A DNA stretch of 33,016 nucleotides from positions 1 through 33,016 of the forward strand of contig JAURPJ010000124.1 in NCBI GenBank assembly GCA_030835305.1, in the 5' to 3' direction. The translations under genes were made by a program, and so were the position numbers. The notes under the pieces were generated by a model. That model made no database searches, was not told where the DNA came from, and was given only the letters and a program-made list of their open reading frames with translations. The DNA is from Verrucomicrobiota bacterium (GTDB taxonomy: Bacteria; Verrucomicrobiota; Verrucomicrobiia; Verrucomicrobiales; Akkermansiaceae). Positions 1-15,510 of the stretch are shown here, piece by piece; the stretch's first letter is position 1, and every line of letters starts with the position of its first letter.

Positions 1-142
1 CGGAGAGCGATATTCCGCCCTCACTCCTTCGGACGCCTATCGGACATAACGCAAAAGGCCTCACCAACTCATGAGTTGGTGAGGCCTTTTGCGTTATGTC
101 CGATAGGCGTCCGAAGGAGTGAGGGCGGAATATCGCTCTCCG
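1..142. repeat. Perfect 142-bp palindrome at the window edge
   Basis: Bases 1-71 are the exact reverse complement of bases 72-142, with no spacer; the centre lies between 71 and 72 in a CTCATGAG core. The palindrome runs precisely to the first base of the window. A long, mismatch-free, spacer-less inverted repeat ending at a sequence edge is typical of an assembly or amplification fold-back. A true cruciform or hairpin end is the alternative. On the minus strand one arm reads as the end of a short ORF with a TAA stop at about 46-48, so the arm itself looks like ordinary genomic sequence. Confidence 0.95.
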
Positions 143-521
143 TCGGATTTTTTAACCGCGTTGAGGTTATCCTCGTTGATCATCATTTCGCGGTCGTCCA
201 TCTCATGGGCTTGTCTGCGCCAGGTTGAAGGTCCCAGCCACGGGATAGTTCAAAATCATCGATTTGTCGAACCTCGCCGCGTAGCGGTTCTGTTCAACAA
301 GGCGGTAGCCCCGGCGACTTGCCGCTGTCCGAGTTTGTGGACGTGTCGGGCGTTTCTGCTACTATAGACGCTTGATTTTCGGACGGTCGCGGATCACCTA
401 TTATGCTCGGTTCAAAAAAATGTCTGACCGTTCGCTGTCCACAGAGAGTTGATTTGATCAATGAACCTCAAGATTTTCTCGATACTCCATCATGCGCTGG
501 CTTCGTTACGATAGGAAGGTC
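143..521. other. Gene-poor stretch with small hairpins
   Basis: No convincing gene is seen. Bases 264-300 form a compact hairpin: TTGTCGAAC pairs with GTTCAACAA with one mismatch, then there is a 4x4 internal loop, a CCGC/GCGG stem and a 3-nt loop. A minus-strand reading frame crosses this hairpin and closes near 210, but it has no clear start or family. The string GTTGATTTG at about 448-456 resembles GTTGATATG at 882-890, which would fit integron cassette junctions, but this is suggestive only. Confidence 0.4.
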
Positions 522-5420: not shown

Positions 5421-6398
5421 ATGAAATTTGAAACGATTTTGATGGCGACTTGTTTCGCCTTCGGGACTTTGGTTCACGCCGACCGGCCCGATTTTAACGA
5501 CAAGGAAGCTCCCCGGACTCTCGGTGATTTTCGCGAGATCCAGAGTGCTTTGCAATCCCATCTCGAGCGCGCCCGCTCTGCAACGATTTGCCTGCAAATG
5601 GGCGGAGGTTCCGGAAGCGCGGTGATTGTCAGCAAAGATGGTTTGGTTCTGACTGCGGCTCACGTCACGAGCAAGGTCGACGAGGAAATCAAGGTGATCA
5701 TGGAAGATGGTCGCGAGTTTAAGGGGCGTTCCCTCGGGCTCAATTCCGAGACTGATTCGGCAATGTTACAAATTGAGGGTGATGGGCCGTTTCCTTTCGT
5801 GGAAGTGGATCTCGATGATACGACCGAGTTGGGCGACTGGGTTTTTTCTCTCGGGCACTCGGGCGGATTTGACAAAGCCCGCGGGGTAAATGTCCGGGTG
5901 GGGCGCTTGGTCCGGACGGCACCAACCACGGTCCAATCTGATTGCATGCTGATCGGTGGTGACTCGGGTGGTCCGCTCTTTAGTATGGCCGGTGAGCTGA
6001 TCGGAATTCACAGCCGGGTTGGAGCATCTCGCGAAGAAAGTATGCATGTTCCAATCCGCGAGTTTCAGGCCCACTGGGACGAACTGAAGGAAGGTAAGTT
6101 TATTGGAGAAGGTGGGTTTGCCCAGAAGAGCAAACCGGGTAGCGGCTTTCTGGGCGTTGTGACCGAGGAATCGGATGAAGTTGGATTGAAGGTGACCGAA
6201 ATTTGGGAGGATGGCGTTGCGGACAAGGCTGGTATCAAAGTGGGTGATCTCATCATCGAAATTGAGGGTGAGAAGGCGACCAAGGAGCTGATGACGAACA
6301 AGCTTGCCGAATCGGGAGCGGGAGACAAATTGAAGCTTAAGTGGAAGAGCGGAGCTGAAACCAAGGAGGAAACAATCAAACTCGGAGAACGACCATGA
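5421..6398 (+). CDS. Secreted trypsin-like serine protease with C-terminal PDZ (pair 1, active)
   Basis: This is a 325-residue S1C-type (HtrA/DegP-like) protease. A signal peptide occupies residues 1-20 (ending VHA). The catalytic triad is intact: His81 in LTAAH, Asp112 in TDSAM and Ser182 in GGDSGGPL. A single PDZ domain spans about 240-325, beginning GFLGVV. ATG 5421 is chosen because it starts the signal peptide; the frame is open further upstream without such a signal. The stop overlaps the next gene's start (ATGA), so the two are translationally coupled. It is shorter than DegP, which has two PDZ domains. Periplasmic quality control or regulated cleavage is the family role; the substrate cannot be read from sequence. 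Confidence 0.9.
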   Translation: MKFETILMATCFAFGTLVHADRPDFNDKEAPRTLGDFREIQSALQSHLERARSATICLQMGGGSGSAVIVSKDGLVLTAAHVTSKVDEEIKVIMEDGREFKGRSLGLNSETDSAMLQIEGDGPFPFVEVDLDDTTELGDWVFSLGHSGGFDKARGVNVRVGRLVRTAPTTVQSDCMLIGGDSGGPLFSMAGELIGIHSRVGASREESMHVPIREFQAHWDELKEGKFIGEGGFAQKSKPGSGFLGVVTEESDEVGLKVTEIWEDGVADKAGIKVGDLIIEIEGEKATKELMTNKLAESGAGDKLKLKWKSGAETKEETIKLGERP

Positions 6399-7390
6399 AG
6401 ATCATCACTTTCCTGCTGGCAGTATCATTGCCTCTCGCTGCCAATTCACTTCCTTCGGAAAAGCGGAAAAATGGACCGTTGGTTCAGGACGCTCTTTCTC
6501 CGGTTCAAGTTTCCCTTCAGGAGAGCAGCGCGGTCTTTTACAGCAACGAAACTTCGAAAGCTTTTCTTTATGGAACGGTGGTGTCCGACGATGGCCTGAT
6601 CATGACGAAAGCCAGTGAAATCGAGGAAGTAGAAAGCTACTACGTGCGCGTTGGGACCAAGAAGTACAGGGATCCGGTCGTTGTTGCGAGAAACGACATT
6701 TGGGATGTCATGATGATAAAAATCGATGCTGAAGGCTTGAAGCCAGTGGATTTTTCCCAAGCCAGAGATTTGGCCCACGGAACCTGGGTCGTATCCAATG
6801 GGGCTACCGAGCGCCGGTTTCGGCGTCCTCGGGCCGGCATCATTAGCGCCAACAAACGTGAGATTCCCGGTGGTTCTCCCGCAGTTTTGGGAGTGGGGCT
6901 TAAAGAGGAGGGCGGTAATCTGCTCGTTGGTGAAATTACCGAAAATTCCGGGGCAGCCAAGGCTGGTTTGAAGGAAGGGGACAAACTGCTCAAAGTGGAT
7001 GGCTCAGACATCAAGGATCGCGATGGTTTGATCGCCTACCTCAAAGACAAATCCCCGGGTGATAAAATCAAGCTCACTTTAACCCGGGGTGAAGAAGAAC
7101 TGACGCTTGAGGTCGAGTTGATGGCTCGGCACAAACTTTACGGACAGGGTAAGACCCGGAATGACCAGCTGAGCGGGGGTGAAGCCCAGCAATCGGCGCG
7201 AAGAACCGGCTTTCCCATGGTTTTGCAGCACGAGACGATGCTGAATCGCAACACCGTCGGAGGTCCTGTTTTTACCCTGGACAATCAGTTTGTCGGAATG
7301 AACATCGCGGCCGTGAATCGGGTTGAGGCCTTCGCCATTCCCGGAAAAGAACTTTCCGAGATCGTGGCCGAGCTGAAGAAGTCGCTGTGA
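6395..7390 (+). CDS. Secreted PDZ pseudoprotease (pair 1, catalytically dead partner)
   Basis: This 331-residue exported protein has a signal peptide at about 1-19 and is related to the preceding protease but lacks its catalytic residues. The LTAAH box is MTKAS (His replaced by Ser74), the Asp region survives as WDVMMIKID, and the GDSGGP box reads NTVGGP (Ser replaced by Val288). Unusually, a full PDZ domain at about 163-248 (VLGVGL ... AKAGLKEGD) lies before the GGP box rather than after it. A GGAG at about -11 supports ATG 6395, which overlaps the upstream stop. A scaffold, inhibitor or substrate-adaptor role for the upstream protease is inference. The gene at 22721-23857 has the same design. 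Confidence 0.82.
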   Translation: MKIITFLLAVSLPLAANSLPSEKRKNGPLVQDALSPVQVSLQESSAVFYSNETSKAFLYGTVVSDDGLIMTKASEIEEVESYYVRVGTKKYRDPVVVARNDIWDVMMIKIDAEGLKPVDFSQARDLAHGTWVVSNGATERRFRRPRAGIISANKREIPGGSPAVLGVGLKEEGGNLLVGEITENSGAAKAGLKEGDKLLKVDGSDIKDRDGLIAYLKDKSPGDKIKLTLTRGEEELTLEVELMARHKLYGQGKTRNDQLSGGEAQQSARRTGFPMVLQHETMLNRNTVGGPVFTLDNQFVGMNIAAVNRVEAFAIPGKELSEIVAELKKSL

Positions 7391-11527: not shown

Positions 11528-13057
11528 TCACCTACCATCCCCGGTGTAAATAATCTTCCCGTTTTTTGGCGCCTGGGGCCACGGAGTCGTTCCAGGTGCC
11601 CAGTCCTTTGGTTGGGTATTTCGGATTTTTTGGACTTCCTGTTTCACCCAGTTCGGAACAGTGACGTTTTCCTTCTGTCCGTATACCCAAGGGAGAGCGG
11701 GTGACATGAGACGATCCATTCCGGTCAGCGGTGGGCGCTCTTTGCCGACGGAGGTCACCCGGTCGGTGAGTTGTTTCACGATTTCCGGATGTTTGGTAGC
11801 GATGTCTGTTTTTTCGGAGGGATCGGCTTCGAGATCATAAAGTTCCTTTCCAACCAATTTGTATCTTCCCTTTCGAATCGCTGGAAAGCGCACACTACCG
11901 GAGACTTCGAAAATGATTTCATCCCGTGGGCTCTTGGAATAGGAAAAGATGACGTCAGTCATGTTCTTACCGTCGAGAGGACGCTCTTGATCGAGCGATG
12001 CCCCGGCAAGCGTGGCGAAGGTGCTGAAGAGATCGGTGACGTGGATCATGCCGTCATTCGTGGAATTGGCTTTGATCTTTTCGGGCCAGCGCATCAGGCA
12101 GGGAACCCGGACGCCGCCTTCGTAGTTTGTGTTTTTCGTGCCACGATAAGGTGCGTTCATTTCCTCTCGTAGTCCTCCATTGTCGTTGGAAAAGATAACG
12201 AGGGTGTTGTCTCCGAAGCCACTCTGATCAACGGCATTCACGATCAGGCCGACGGCATCGTCGAGGCATTTTAAGGCGGCGTAACGTTTCCCATGCTGCT
12301 CAACATAGCGGGGGATTTCCTCAAGCGGACCGTGGACTGCGTTAAAGGCGACATACATGAACAACGGTTGCTCCTGTCGCTCCATGCGGTGTTCGGCAAT
12401 CACGCGGACGGCTTCGTTGGCAATGAGGTCCGTGCTATAACCGGGTTCGAAGACTGGCTTCTGGTTTCGATGCCAATCATAAACCGCAAAGCGTGCGGGC
12501 GCGTTGTGCGGAATCGTTTTATTGTTGTAGTCTATTCCCCAACCATAGTGACCGTATTGGTGATCGAAGCCCTGACCCATCGGGAGTTGGCCCGGGAGCC
12601 ACTCTCCGCAATGCCATTTGCCGGCAATCGAAGTGAAGTATCCCGAGTCCTTCAACGCCTCTGCAATGGTTCGTTCCTCGGTCGCGACGCCGTGAATCCG
12701 GCGGGTTTCGTCCCCTTGCTTGTTCCTGACCAATTCCATCCCAAGCTTCGCGAGGTAGCTGGGTTTGCCAAAGTCTTCCGAGCGCCAATCACTCCAGGTT
12801 CGGAAGGCATACCGCCCGGTGAGGAAGGCGGCGCGGGTCGGGGCGCAGACCGCGTGAACGTAAAATTGGTGCAAGCTGACTCCTTGTGATCGGAGCTTGG
12901 TGAGGTGCGGAGTGAGCTTGGCGTCGCCGCCATTGAAGGCGGGTTCGTTCCAGCCCACATCGTCCGACAGAATGAAAATGATGTTTGGTTTTGAGCCATC
13001 GACTGGGGAAGCGTTGGCCAGATTGAGTGAAGCGAGAAAGAGGATGAGTTTTTTCAT
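11528..13057 (-). CDS. Secreted type I sulfatase (CAPTR)
   Basis: This 509-residue alkaline-phosphatase-superfamily sulfatase hydrolyses sulfate esters, in this phylum typically of algal polysaccharides. A signal peptide lies at 1-16 (MKKLILFLASLNLANA). The first metal-binding box is SDDVGWNEP. The maturation motif CAPTR at 71-75 matches CxPxR, so Cys71 should become formylglycine. A SNDNGG box supplies further metal ligands. ATG 13057 is preferred because it begins the signal peptide; the upstream extension would overlap the neighbouring gene. It is the third gene of the sulfatase operon, 14 bp after the TIM-barrel gene. The substrate cannot be assigned. Confidence 0.93.
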   Translation of the reverse strand: MKKLILFLASLNLANASPVDGSKPNIIFILSDDVGWNEPAFNGGDAKLTPHLTKLRSQGVSLHQFYVHAVCAPTRAAFLTGRYAFRTWSDWRSEDFGKPSYLAKLGMELVRNKQGDETRRIHGVATEERTIAEALKDSGYFTSIAGKWHCGEWLPGQLPMGQGFDHQYGHYGWGIDYNNKTIPHNAPARFAVYDWHRNQKPVFEPGYSTDLIANEAVRVIAEHRMERQEQPLFMYVAFNAVHGPLEEIPRYVEQHGKRYAALKCLDDAVGLIVNAVDQSGFGDNTLVIFSNDNGGLREEMNAPYRGTKNTNYEGGVRVPCLMRWPEKIKANSTNDGMIHVTDLFSTFATLAGASLDQERPLDGKNMTDVIFSYSKSPRDEIIFEVSGSVRFPAIRKGRYKLVGKELYDLEADPSEKTDIATKHPEIVKQLTDRVTSVGKERPPLTGMDRLMSPALPWVYGQKENVTVPNWVKQEVQKIRNTQPKDWAPGTTPWPQAPKNGKIIYTGDGR

Positions 13058-13071
13058 GGGTGAGGTGCTGC

Positions 13072-13959
13072 CTAGATATCGCAAATTGAGATGGCTTCTT
13101 CGAGGCCTTTGAGCGGATTGCCGGTGGGAATCCATTCGTGGCCGACGTAGCCGGAGTAGTTGATTTTGAGGAGGGTCTTCATAAGGCCGCGGTAATTGAT
13201 TTCCTGGTTGTCGCCGATTTCTCCGCGTCCGGGATTTCCGGCGATTTGAACGTGGCCGATAAATTCGTAATGTTGTTCGATCCGTCGGATGAGATCGCCG
13301 TCCATAATTTGCACGTGATAGGCGTCGAAAAGAACTTTGAAGGCCGGAGAGGAGACCGCCTTGACGATCTCGACGCAGTTATCGATGTGGTCGCCTTGAT
13401 ACCCGGGGTGGCCTTTCATCTTCTCATCGACCTTTGAGTTGAGTGGTTCGAGGACTAGGGTAACCTTATGTTTCTCGGCAACCGCGGCCATTTTCTTAAA
13501 GCCCTCGATGCAGTTTTTGGTTCCTTCTTCAACCGAAACACAACTGCCATTTTCATGGTGAGTGGTGTCGAGTAAGCCGGTAAAAGTCATGACGTTTGGA
13601 AAACCCGCCGCTCCGGTGGTGGCAATGGTCTTTTCCAAAATGGCAAAGACCTCTGGGTGGTGCCCTTTGTTGTTCATCCCGCGTTCGAAGTTGTGGGATT
13701 TGGTCGCGGCGCAAACCAATCCGGTGTCTTTCAAAAGAGGAAGCTGTTCAGCGGAAAAGAGCTCGACTCCGGCAACGCCGAGTTGTTTGGCGTGTTTGAT
13801 GACATCCAGTGGAGTCCATTTCGCCGCGACAATAAAGGGCCAGGCAGCGATGACCTGCTTGATCCGACCATTGCGGGCGGTACTCTCTTGGGCAAGAACG
13901 GGAGAAGTGAACGCGGCGGCACCAAGGCCTGTCAGGAAATTTCTTCTGGATGGAGTCAT
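13072..13959 (-). CDS. Tat-exported TIM-barrel sugar isomerase/epimerase-like protein
   Basis: This 295-residue protein belongs to the xylose isomerase-like TIM-barrel superfamily and resembles hydroxypyruvate isomerases. The N-terminus carries a Tat-type signal (SRRNFLTGLGAAAF ... VLAQ). Metal-ligand candidates include the Glu in LVLEPLNSK, the Asp and His in FDAYHVQ, and the Glu in GHEWIPTG. It lies between two sulfatase genes: the upstream stop is one base before this start region and the downstream sulfatase begins 14 bp after its stop. An extracytoplasmic role on a desulfated sugar is inferred from that context; the exact reaction is unknown. Confidence 0.85.
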   Translation of the reverse strand: MTPSRRNFLTGLGAAAFTSPVLAQESTARNGRIKQVIAAWPFIVAAKWTPLDVIKHAKQLGVAGVELFSAEQLPLLKDTGLVCAATKSHNFERGMNNKGHHPEVFAILEKTIATTGAAGFPNVMTFTGLLDTTHHENGSCVSVEEGTKNCIEGFKKMAAVAEKHKVTLVLEPLNSKVDEKMKGHPGYQGDHIDNCVEIVKAVSSPAFKVLFDAYHVQIMDGDLIRRIEQHYEFIGHVQIAGNPGRGEIGDNQEINYRGLMKTLLKINYSGYVGHEWIPTGNPLKGLEEAISICDI

Positions 13960-13960
13960 C

Positions 13961-15376
13961 TTATTTGAGGTGTCGGTGTGGTGTGTTTTTCACGGCTTCC
14001 AATTTTTCTGAGAGACGTGCTACAATTTCGGGGTGTTCCAAAAAAAGGTTGTTGGTTTCACCGGGATCTTTTCCGAGATGGTAGAGCTGACCGGTGAGGC
14101 CGTTTGCTTCAGGTTTAACATTTTTTGGTTTACTAAACCCTCCCGAGCCGAGCGCGGTGATCAGCTTCCAGTCGCCTTCACGAACGGTCATCACTTTGGC
14201 GCTTCCGGCGCGCATGACAAAGCTATCTCGTGAGGAGGATTCGCCTTTGAGTGATGGCAGGAAACTAAAGCTATCGGGACCAGCTTCTTTTGGGATTTTA
14301 GTTCCCATGAGTTCGGCGAAGGTTGCGAGGAAATCAGTAAAGCAGATCAGTTGCTCGCTGGTGGATCCGGCCTTGGCTACCCCGGGCCAGCGTGCCACGA
14401 AGGGCATGCGGTGGCCTGCTTCCCAGGCGTCCGCTTTCATGCCGCGAAGATGGCCTTGGGAGTCATGGGCATATTTTTTAACGTCTTTGTCATACCAGCA
14501 GGGGCCGTTGTCGGAGGTGAAGATGACCAGAGTATCTTTTTCCATTTTCGCTTCTTCGAGAGCGGCGAGGACCTTGCCGATTTGTGCGTCCACCATCATG
14601 ACAAAGTCGCCATAGATGCCGACCTTGCTCTTGCCGAGAAATTCCTCCGAGGGGAGCCACGGAGTGTGCGGGGCAGGGTAGGCGAGGTAGAGCATGAGAG
14701 GGGCTTCTTTCTTGTGGCTTTTAATGATCTCAACCGCTTCCTCGGTGAAGTTTGGAAGAACGTCATCGATGTTCATGTCGGGCGAGATTCCTCCGGCCCG
14801 GCGCATGCGGCCTTGAATGGCATTCCACCCGGTTTCTTCCGGCGAGAGTTCTTTTTCGATATGGCCGGTGGGCGGTTGAACCGCCTTGTCATCCCGAATG
14901 TAAAAGTAGGGCGGAATATCAGTGGAGGCACGAATGCCAAAGTAGGAGTCAAAGCCGCGATCAACCGGACCTCCGGGAAGAGGTTTGTCGTAGCCATTTT
15001 CTTTGAATCCAACGTGCCATTTGCCGACCATGGCGGTTTTGTATCCTTGTGATTTTGCAAGGGAAGCGATGGTCATTTGCCCTTCCTCAATCAACGGATG
15101 CTTTGGCCAGCGCCCGACGTCGGTGCGGAAGGGATAGCGTCCGGTGAGTAAACCATAACGCGACATGTGACAAAGTGGGCCGGGCGCGTGGGCATCGGTA
15201 AATCTTATCCCGTCACGCGCCAGCGAATCAATATGCGGAGTCGCGATCTTCGAATGAGGGTTGAAGCAACCCGGATCTCCGTAGCCCATGTCGTCGACGA
15301 GGATGATGACGATGTTTGGTCTGGCCAAGCACGTCATCGAAAGAAGGAAGGACAGGAGCAGCAGTTTCAACGACAT
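13961..15376 (-). CDS. Secreted sulfatase with variant CHMSR maturation motif
   Basis: This 471-residue sulfatase has a signal peptide at about 1-18 and the metal box LVDDMGYGDPG. The expected CxPxR box is PLCHMSRYGLLTGR, with Cys69 present but Met where Pro normally stands. KWHVG, TSDNGP and other superfamily motifs are retained, so the fold is intact. Whether formylglycine-generating enzyme accepts this Cys is uncertain. ATG 15376 opens the signal peptide. It is the first gene of the minus-strand operon, with one base between its stop and the TIM-barrel start. It is divergent from the membrane protein at 15511, leaving about 134 bp for promoters. Confidence 0.9.
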   Translation of the reverse strand: MSLKLLLLSFLLSMTCLARPNIVIILVDDMGYGDPGCFNPHSKIATPHIDSLARDGIRFTDAHAPGPLCHMSRYGLLTGRYPFRTDVGRWPKHPLIEEGQMTIASLAKSQGYKTAMVGKWHVGFKENGYDKPLPGGPVDRGFDSYFGIRASTDIPPYFYIRDDKAVQPPTGHIEKELSPEETGWNAIQGRMRRAGGISPDMNIDDVLPNFTEEAVEIIKSHKKEAPLMLYLAYPAPHTPWLPSEEFLGKSKVGIYGDFVMMVDAQIGKVLAALEEAKMEKDTLVIFTSDNGPCWYDKDVKKYAHDSQGHLRGMKADAWEAGHRMPFVARWPGVAKAGSTSEQLICFTDFLATFAELMGTKIPKEAGPDSFSFLPSLKGESSSRDSFVMRAGSAKVMTVREGDWKLITALGSGGFSKPKNVKPEANGLTGQLYHLGKDPGETNNLFLEHPEIVARLSEKLEAVKNTPHRHLK

Positions 15377-15510
15377 GGAAGGGAGGATATGAGGTGCAAA
15401 GTGTCTCGCAAAGGAGGAAAAGGCAGGAGTTTGGTTTTCCACTGTAGCCTTTTCTGGTGAAAGATCGTAAGCTTGATGGAAATTAAGACTATGGAAGGGA
15501 ACACGTTGAA

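Follow-up and report, generated by a model that had tools for sequence, protein, structure and literature searches.

A PDZ domain predicted to lie within the L3 loop of a catalytically dead HtrA encoded next to an active HtrA: a candidate two-part protease of Verrucomicrobiota and Planctomycetota

The window analysed here, i.e., the whole stretch of 33,016 nucleotides of contig JAURPJ010000124.1 (Akkermansiaceae), carries two tandem pairs of HtrA-like genes on the forward strand. In pair 1, P0002 (5421..6398, +, 325 aa) encodes an active HtrA with TAAH and GGDSGGP motifs and a C-terminal PDZ domain; its TGA overlaps the ATG of P0001 (6395..7390, +, 331 aa), the two codons sharing the ATGA at 6395-6398, and P0001 encodes an HtrA-like pseudoprotease whose PDZ is nested inside the protease domain. 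Pair 2 has the same composition, with an active HtrA carrying a C-terminal PDZ (P0004, 21734..22714, +, 326 aa) and a nested pseudoprotease (P0003, 22721..23857, +, 378 aa, PDZ at residues 166-240) that has Ser at the His position and Ala at the Ser position. The neighbours of pair 1 are a gene for a 3-keto-disaccharide hydrolase/cytochrome c protein and a photolyase gene, pair 2 is followed by MgsA and FKBP, and no envelope-stress gene was recognised beside either pair. Between the two pairs, at 11528-15442 on the minus strand, a xylose-isomerase-like TIM-barrel gene is found between two sulfatases, perhaps a carbohydrate-desulfation cluster.

P0001 begins with an N-terminus that looks, by eye, like a signal peptide, and can be divided into an N-terminal protease part (residues ~28-158), a PDZ (~162-243; 6878..7123, +), a linker (~244-272), and a C-terminal protease part (~273-329). 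Pfam matches Trypsin_2 at residues 60-155, which cover profile positions 3-108 of 144, and PDZ_2 at residues 164-242 (E 8.6e-17). Residues 165-167 (LGV) stand at what we take to be the place of the PDZ carboxylate-binding loop, and L165 and G166 are almost invariant in the 80 aligned nested sequences described below. The degenerate active-site box NTVGGP (residues 286-291; 7250..7267, +), in which V288 replaces the catalytic Ser, lies downstream of the PDZ, as the initial annotation had placed it. A phmmer comparison with HTRA1 (3num) returned two pieces, P0001 35-155 on chain residues 24-146 and 276-326 on 160-210; these two pieces around the PDZ indicate a single protease domain split in two.

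The initial annotation had left two possibilities, a PDZ inserted inside a trypsin-like fold or a rearranged C-terminal lobe, and had proposed to settle the matter by predicting whether the residues after the PDZ finish the second β-barrel. The AlphaFold2 model of P0001, built from the 80-row alignment (mean pLDDT 90.2, pTM 0.83), indicates that they do: the predicted C lobe is made of strands 131-138 and 143-155 before the PDZ and of strands 276-279, 291-294, 299-306, and 312-316 followed by helix 317-329 after it, and residues 27..330 of the model superpose on DegS deltaPDZ (2r3u_C, 42..251) with 181 of 185 residues aligned (rmsd 2.7, Z 22.7; VIA-align). Since the C-terminal segment completes the second barrel, the PDZ is predicted to be a true insert within the trypsin fold rather than the product of a rearrangement, and the model holds no sign of the separate C-terminal domain, unrelated to the barrel, that would have spoken for the opposite. 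A permuted C lobe can be discarded, the C lobe being collinear with that of DegS and HTRA1 in structure, alignment, and HMM pieces. Whole-chain Foldseek searches with P0001 gave low TM-scores (~0.25-0.42), as expected for a protein whose PDZ is not where the targets have theirs. The model of P0003 (pLDDT 84.8, pTM 0.72) superposes on the HTRA1 catalytic domain (3tjn_B) over 180 of 197 residues (rmsd 2.5, Z 23.3), and P0003 is predicted on this ground to share the nested-PDZ fold of P0001. Its C-terminal extension (342-377), predicted to form a long charged helix at 350-377, is absent from pair 1.

The same architecture recurs throughout the family, which we collected by a pattern scan of an 84,980-species collection: 268 stretches were retrieved, 224 confirmed, and 80 kept, of which L045-L113 belong to Verrucomicrobiota and L114-L124 to Planctomycetota. 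The 80 nested rows of our alignment are P0001, P0003, and 78 of these 80 fetched loci, the truncated L103 and L107 being omitted. Pfam matched both Trypsin_2 and PDZ_2 in all 80 rows, and an HMM of canonical HtrAs, whose columns were taken from an alignment also holding the nested rows and which is thus not fully independent of them, matched as two collinear pieces either side of the PDZ in 77 rows and as a single piece in the other three, P0003 among them. The nested family has, therefore, the two-barrel trypsin-like domain and at least one PDZ that define HtrA/S1C proteins; the PDZ, which usually follows the protease in HtrAs, is found here between two collinear protease pieces.

In order to locate the insertion point, we aligned the nested proteins to E. 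coli DegS, DegP, and DegQ with the PDZ columns omitted. The insert is bracketed by R155 (codon 6857..6859, +), which aligns with DegS R178 in loop L3, and by Q278 (codon 7226..7228, +), which aligns with DegS Q191. L3 is given as residues 176-189 of DegS, where R178 meets the LD' loop of the neighbouring subunit in an activation cluster with T167 and Q191 (PMC11642142); the HTRA1 counterpart of R178 is R302 (PMC5666011). As the equivalents of R178 and Q191 flank the insert, its insertion point is assigned by alignment to L3, the allosteric sensor loop. Both flanking residues are kept in 80/80 nested rows, R at the first position and Q at the second, while the column of DegS T167 holds R in 68/80 and a gap in 12/80. 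One has to keep in mind that R178 and Q191 are common to ordinary HtrAs too, so their retention may be partly structural.

Catalytic residues fared differently. The His column of the nested rows holds S in 79 and T in one, so that His is lost in 80/80; the Ser column holds V 38, M 17, C 10, I 5, Q 4, T 3, A 2, and E 1, so that Ser is lost in 80/80 as well; the catalytic Asp is kept in all 80, and the columns of G199 and N200 are mixed. The His-Asp-Ser triad of active S1C peptidases is, thus, broken in all 80 rows, and the nested protein is to be considered, on its aligned residues, a conserved pseudoprotease. It has a signature of its own: TKASE at the old His site, FPxxLQHD, and GxNIAR..R....A(I/L)P, with K72 and D104 invariant in the 80 rows, S at position 74 in 79/80, and E75 almost invariant. 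With the three Degs of E. coli and the window genome's unpaired HtrA included, a FastTree phylogeny groups the nested rows into a clade of their own (support 1.0) and their active partners into another (0.845).

Compared with L046-L048, the nested gene of pair 1 has a pN of ~0.07 for a pS of 0.76-0.78, and its partner behaves alike (pN 0.07-0.09); compared with L050 and L051, the nested gene evolves faster (pN 0.19-0.20) than the partner (pN 0.12-0.13). The dN/dS of the L047/L048 pair is 0.10. These substitution patterns point to purifying selection on the nested gene. A decaying pseudogene is ruled out for P0001 by its pN of ~0.07 against a saturated pS, and a chance or spurious ORF by the family-wide Pfam matches, the selection, and the upstream pairing.

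That pairing is almost constant. An active HtrA ORF, recognised by a GDSGG motif and a profile match, lies directly upstream in 78/78 loci having upstream DNA, L103 and L107 being cut by the contig end; no locus among the 78 was found to be without one. An additional search of the order gave an active HtrA upstream in 29/29 fetched loci, one of them fused; of another 20 copies, the majority of the second type, 19 have a separate active ORF directly upstream and one is a fusion. The active HtrAs of all 20 further copies have His-Asp-Ser by alignment; so do 80/80 partners in the 80-row alignment, partly by construction, as these were chosen by their His and GDSGG motifs. At the junctions, judging from start codons guessed from the codons at each junction rather than mapped, a 4-nt overlap of the nested start codon with the partner stop occurs in 19/78 pairs, and the nearest nested start codon lies at most 30 nt from the partner stop in 67/78. 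The sole known exception to the pairing is a 557-aa copy in the window's own genome (C27; L043:2886-4556), which has no active HtrA directly upstream. Its nested pseudoprotease occupies residues 273-550, the ~270 N-terminal residues gave no Pfam match at E 1e-5, and the gene precedes a 722-aa active-plus-nested fusion, whose start it overlaps.

The partners are HtrAs with peculiarities of their own. They kept their own PDZ in 73/78 loci; in the five others (L102, L104, L105, L108, and L109; four Akkermansia, one Akkermansiaceae), the partner is ~250 aa long without a PDZ match and the nested PDZ is kept. We considered loss of the PDZ from the active partner as a general rule for Akkermansia and rejected it, since it concerns one pair only and Akkermansia-like genomes have a second pair whose partner does carry a PDZ. 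The LD loop of the partners has diverged, with G in place of DegS Y162 in 79/80 and a gap at the T167 column in 80/80; L181, the unpaired HtrA of the window's genome, does not share this divergence. Q191 is kept in 67/80 partners. The spacing between R178 and Q191 is 9 in 79/80 partners, which had suggested a lost L3 sensor loop; the idea is weakened, as the spacing is 12 in the three E. coli Degs, yet only 10 in the unpaired HtrA. With LD and L3 both altered in the partner, the contacts described for DegS are not transferable one to one. In an alignment of pair 2 as one chain (A3), in which dead subunits seemingly fell on the active half, G68 and D105 are invariant throughout.

Active and dead halves can also be found in one chain. 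We read 20 regions for such fusions, 18 picked for their long open frames and two from the window's own genome, a choice from which no fusion rate can be derived; both halves share one ORF in 18 of them, and are encoded by separate overlapping ORFs in L189 and L193 (L200 is the same locus as L033, the fusion of the order search). All 18 fused active halves align with His-Asp-Ser. L044 is a natural fusion of 799 aa. The order is reversed in L188 (G318:C24), a 637-aa ORF in which the dead nested half comes first and the active HtrA second. Two PDZs are found inside the dead lobe in L196 and L197, and four consecutive ones lie between its N and C parts in L201 (G549:C18), a 1060-aa ORF.

As for the distribution of the nested protein, phyla beyond Verrucomicrobiota and Planctomycetota were covered by the pattern scan alone. 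The order search matched 87/112 genomes at E <= 1e-6, a figure that includes non-nested matches. In a sample of the phylum (288 genomes), at least 31 have a full-length match (E <= 4e-47, among matches listed to 5.5e-17): 23 of the 32 genomes of the window's family, six in another family of its order, and two in a family from outside the class; the remaining listed matches are partial or short, as from canonical HtrAs. The 9/32 genomes of the window's family without a full-length nested match all fall in a single genus group (g2, taken to be Akkermansia). Among the Verrucomicrobiales sampled, the pair is common, also in genomes titled Akkermansia muciniphila; in these, the active subunit of one of the two pairs has no PDZ match of its own. 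For Planctomycetota, 41/246 sampled genomes have a match at E <= 1e-25. The window's genome contains five nested copies: two in the window, two in fusions, and the 557-aa copy. One nested copy (G091:C20:26359-27246) has two in-frame TAG codons and is apparently decayed.

The fold and the parts of this protein are already known; for the PDZ-in-L3 topology, fixed in a dead subunit that is almost constantly paired, searches of open PMC papers listed none with a description of it in its title or opening abstract lines. The closest relatives are DegS, DegP, and HTRA1 (S1C), with which the nested protein shares the two-barrel fold (Z ~21-24 over the protease domain among the matches listed), the presence of a PDZ, and two residues of the activation cluster (the Arg in L3 and the Gln); it differs from them by a PDZ inside L3 instead of after the protease, by the loss of the catalytic His and Ser, and by its coding as the second member of a pair or within a fusion. 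MamO, a dead HtrA of magnetotactic bacteria that is required for MamE-dependent proteolysis and binds metal (PMC4794232), is likewise encoded with an active HtrA, whereas a PDZ is not mentioned in the main text of its paper (PMC4794232). MamO is reported there to activate MamE via its transporter domain, with no physical contact detected (PMC4794232). A Pfam scan for TauE in the 80 nested rows found none (only Trypsin_2, PDZ-type, and three stray weak families), P0001 and P0003 being scanned whole and most other rows trimmed near the C-terminal end of the match.

A PDZ insertion into a protease core has been described for SpoIVB (S55), with one PDZ strand packing into the core; unlike here, its PDZ precedes the protease, its site is not L3, and no paired active HtrA figures in the part of the description available to us. 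In the nested family, by contrast with the S55 order of PDZ before protease, the N part of the protease precedes the PDZ, and the NCBIfam model spore_IV_B matches P0001 at residues 155-241 only, with 29.8 bits against a cut-off of 305.25. Plant Deg5/Deg8, two HtrA paralogues that share a compartment and of which one has a PDZ and the other none, resemble the combination of a PDZ-less Akkermansia partner with a PDZ-bearing dead subunit; unlike that combination, both have the triad His and Ser in the available part of the source, where no nesting of the Deg8 PDZ is described (PMC3640471). A census of microbial PDZ proteins reports many of them in planctomycetes, and the nested architecture is not seen in the part of it available.

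Regulation of HtrA proteases is classically an allosteric relay from the PDZ to L3 and on to LD' among identical subunits. The retention of the relay residues in the dead subunit, the location of its PDZ in the relay loop, and its almost constant active companion lead us to propose a two-part HtrA of the cell envelope, whose dead subunit would sense peptides and switch the active one; we infer the co-assembly and the switching, and consider the proposal evenly balanced between right and wrong. The upstream subunit would be an ordinary active S1C protease and do the cutting; the downstream dead subunit would join it in an HtrA-type oligomer; a peptide bound by the nested PDZ would move L3, whose Arg (R155) would then come into contact with LD/L1 of the active neighbour and switch proteolysis, so that sensing and cutting would be split between two chains. 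Its strictest form, a two-component HtrA conserved in Verrucomicrobiota and Planctomycetota whose dead subunit has the PDZ wired into its L3, so that ligand binding acts directly on the activation cluster of the catalytic neighbour, we put forward tentatively and would rather bet slightly against. The third residue of the cluster, T167, is lost in the dead subunit, which speaks against a two-part HtrA; most partners having their own PDZ, the nested one would not be the sole sensor; and MamO, acting through a transporter domain without detected contact, is a precedent that gives protease–protease contact no support.

The main rival is an adaptor or holdase role, in which the dead subunit would bind the active one and its nested PDZ just capture or thread substrates, with no allosteric switch. 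Fusions and tandem genes require mere proximity, and the two or four PDZs of L196, L197, and L201 resemble added binding sites more than a fine-tuned lever; an insertion at L3 and not at a terminus in the rows examined, next to an invariant Arg and Gln, fits such a role poorly, and we deem it unlikely while taking it seriously. It is improbable that the nested protein is a repurposed pseudoprotease sharing an operon with an active paralogue that it does not regulate: MamO offers a precedent, and the invariant K72 with the almost invariant S74 and E75 of TKASE are new features outside the logic of DegS, but an independent function would hardly account for fusions in many genomes, one of them reversed, nor for adjacency in every one of the 78 loci, which come from two phyla. 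That the protein is still a hydrolase, its new active centre made up of K72, S74, E75, and D104 or of the Cys or Thr found at the old Ser site in 10 and three rows, is scarcely credible despite the conservation of K72, D104, and S74, given that this site is mostly V, M, I, Q, A, or E amid mixed G199 and N200 columns. To our knowledge, a Ser/Lys pair two residues apart at an old His site is without precedent.

If the strictest form of the proposal is real, the PDZ-L3-LD relay and catalysis would have been separated genetically in nature. A dead PDZ-in-L3 subunit paired or fused with an active one makes a ready-made test of which subunit senses and which cuts. Pfam annotates both genes of a pair alike (Trypsin_2 + PDZ), which hides the dead, nested one.
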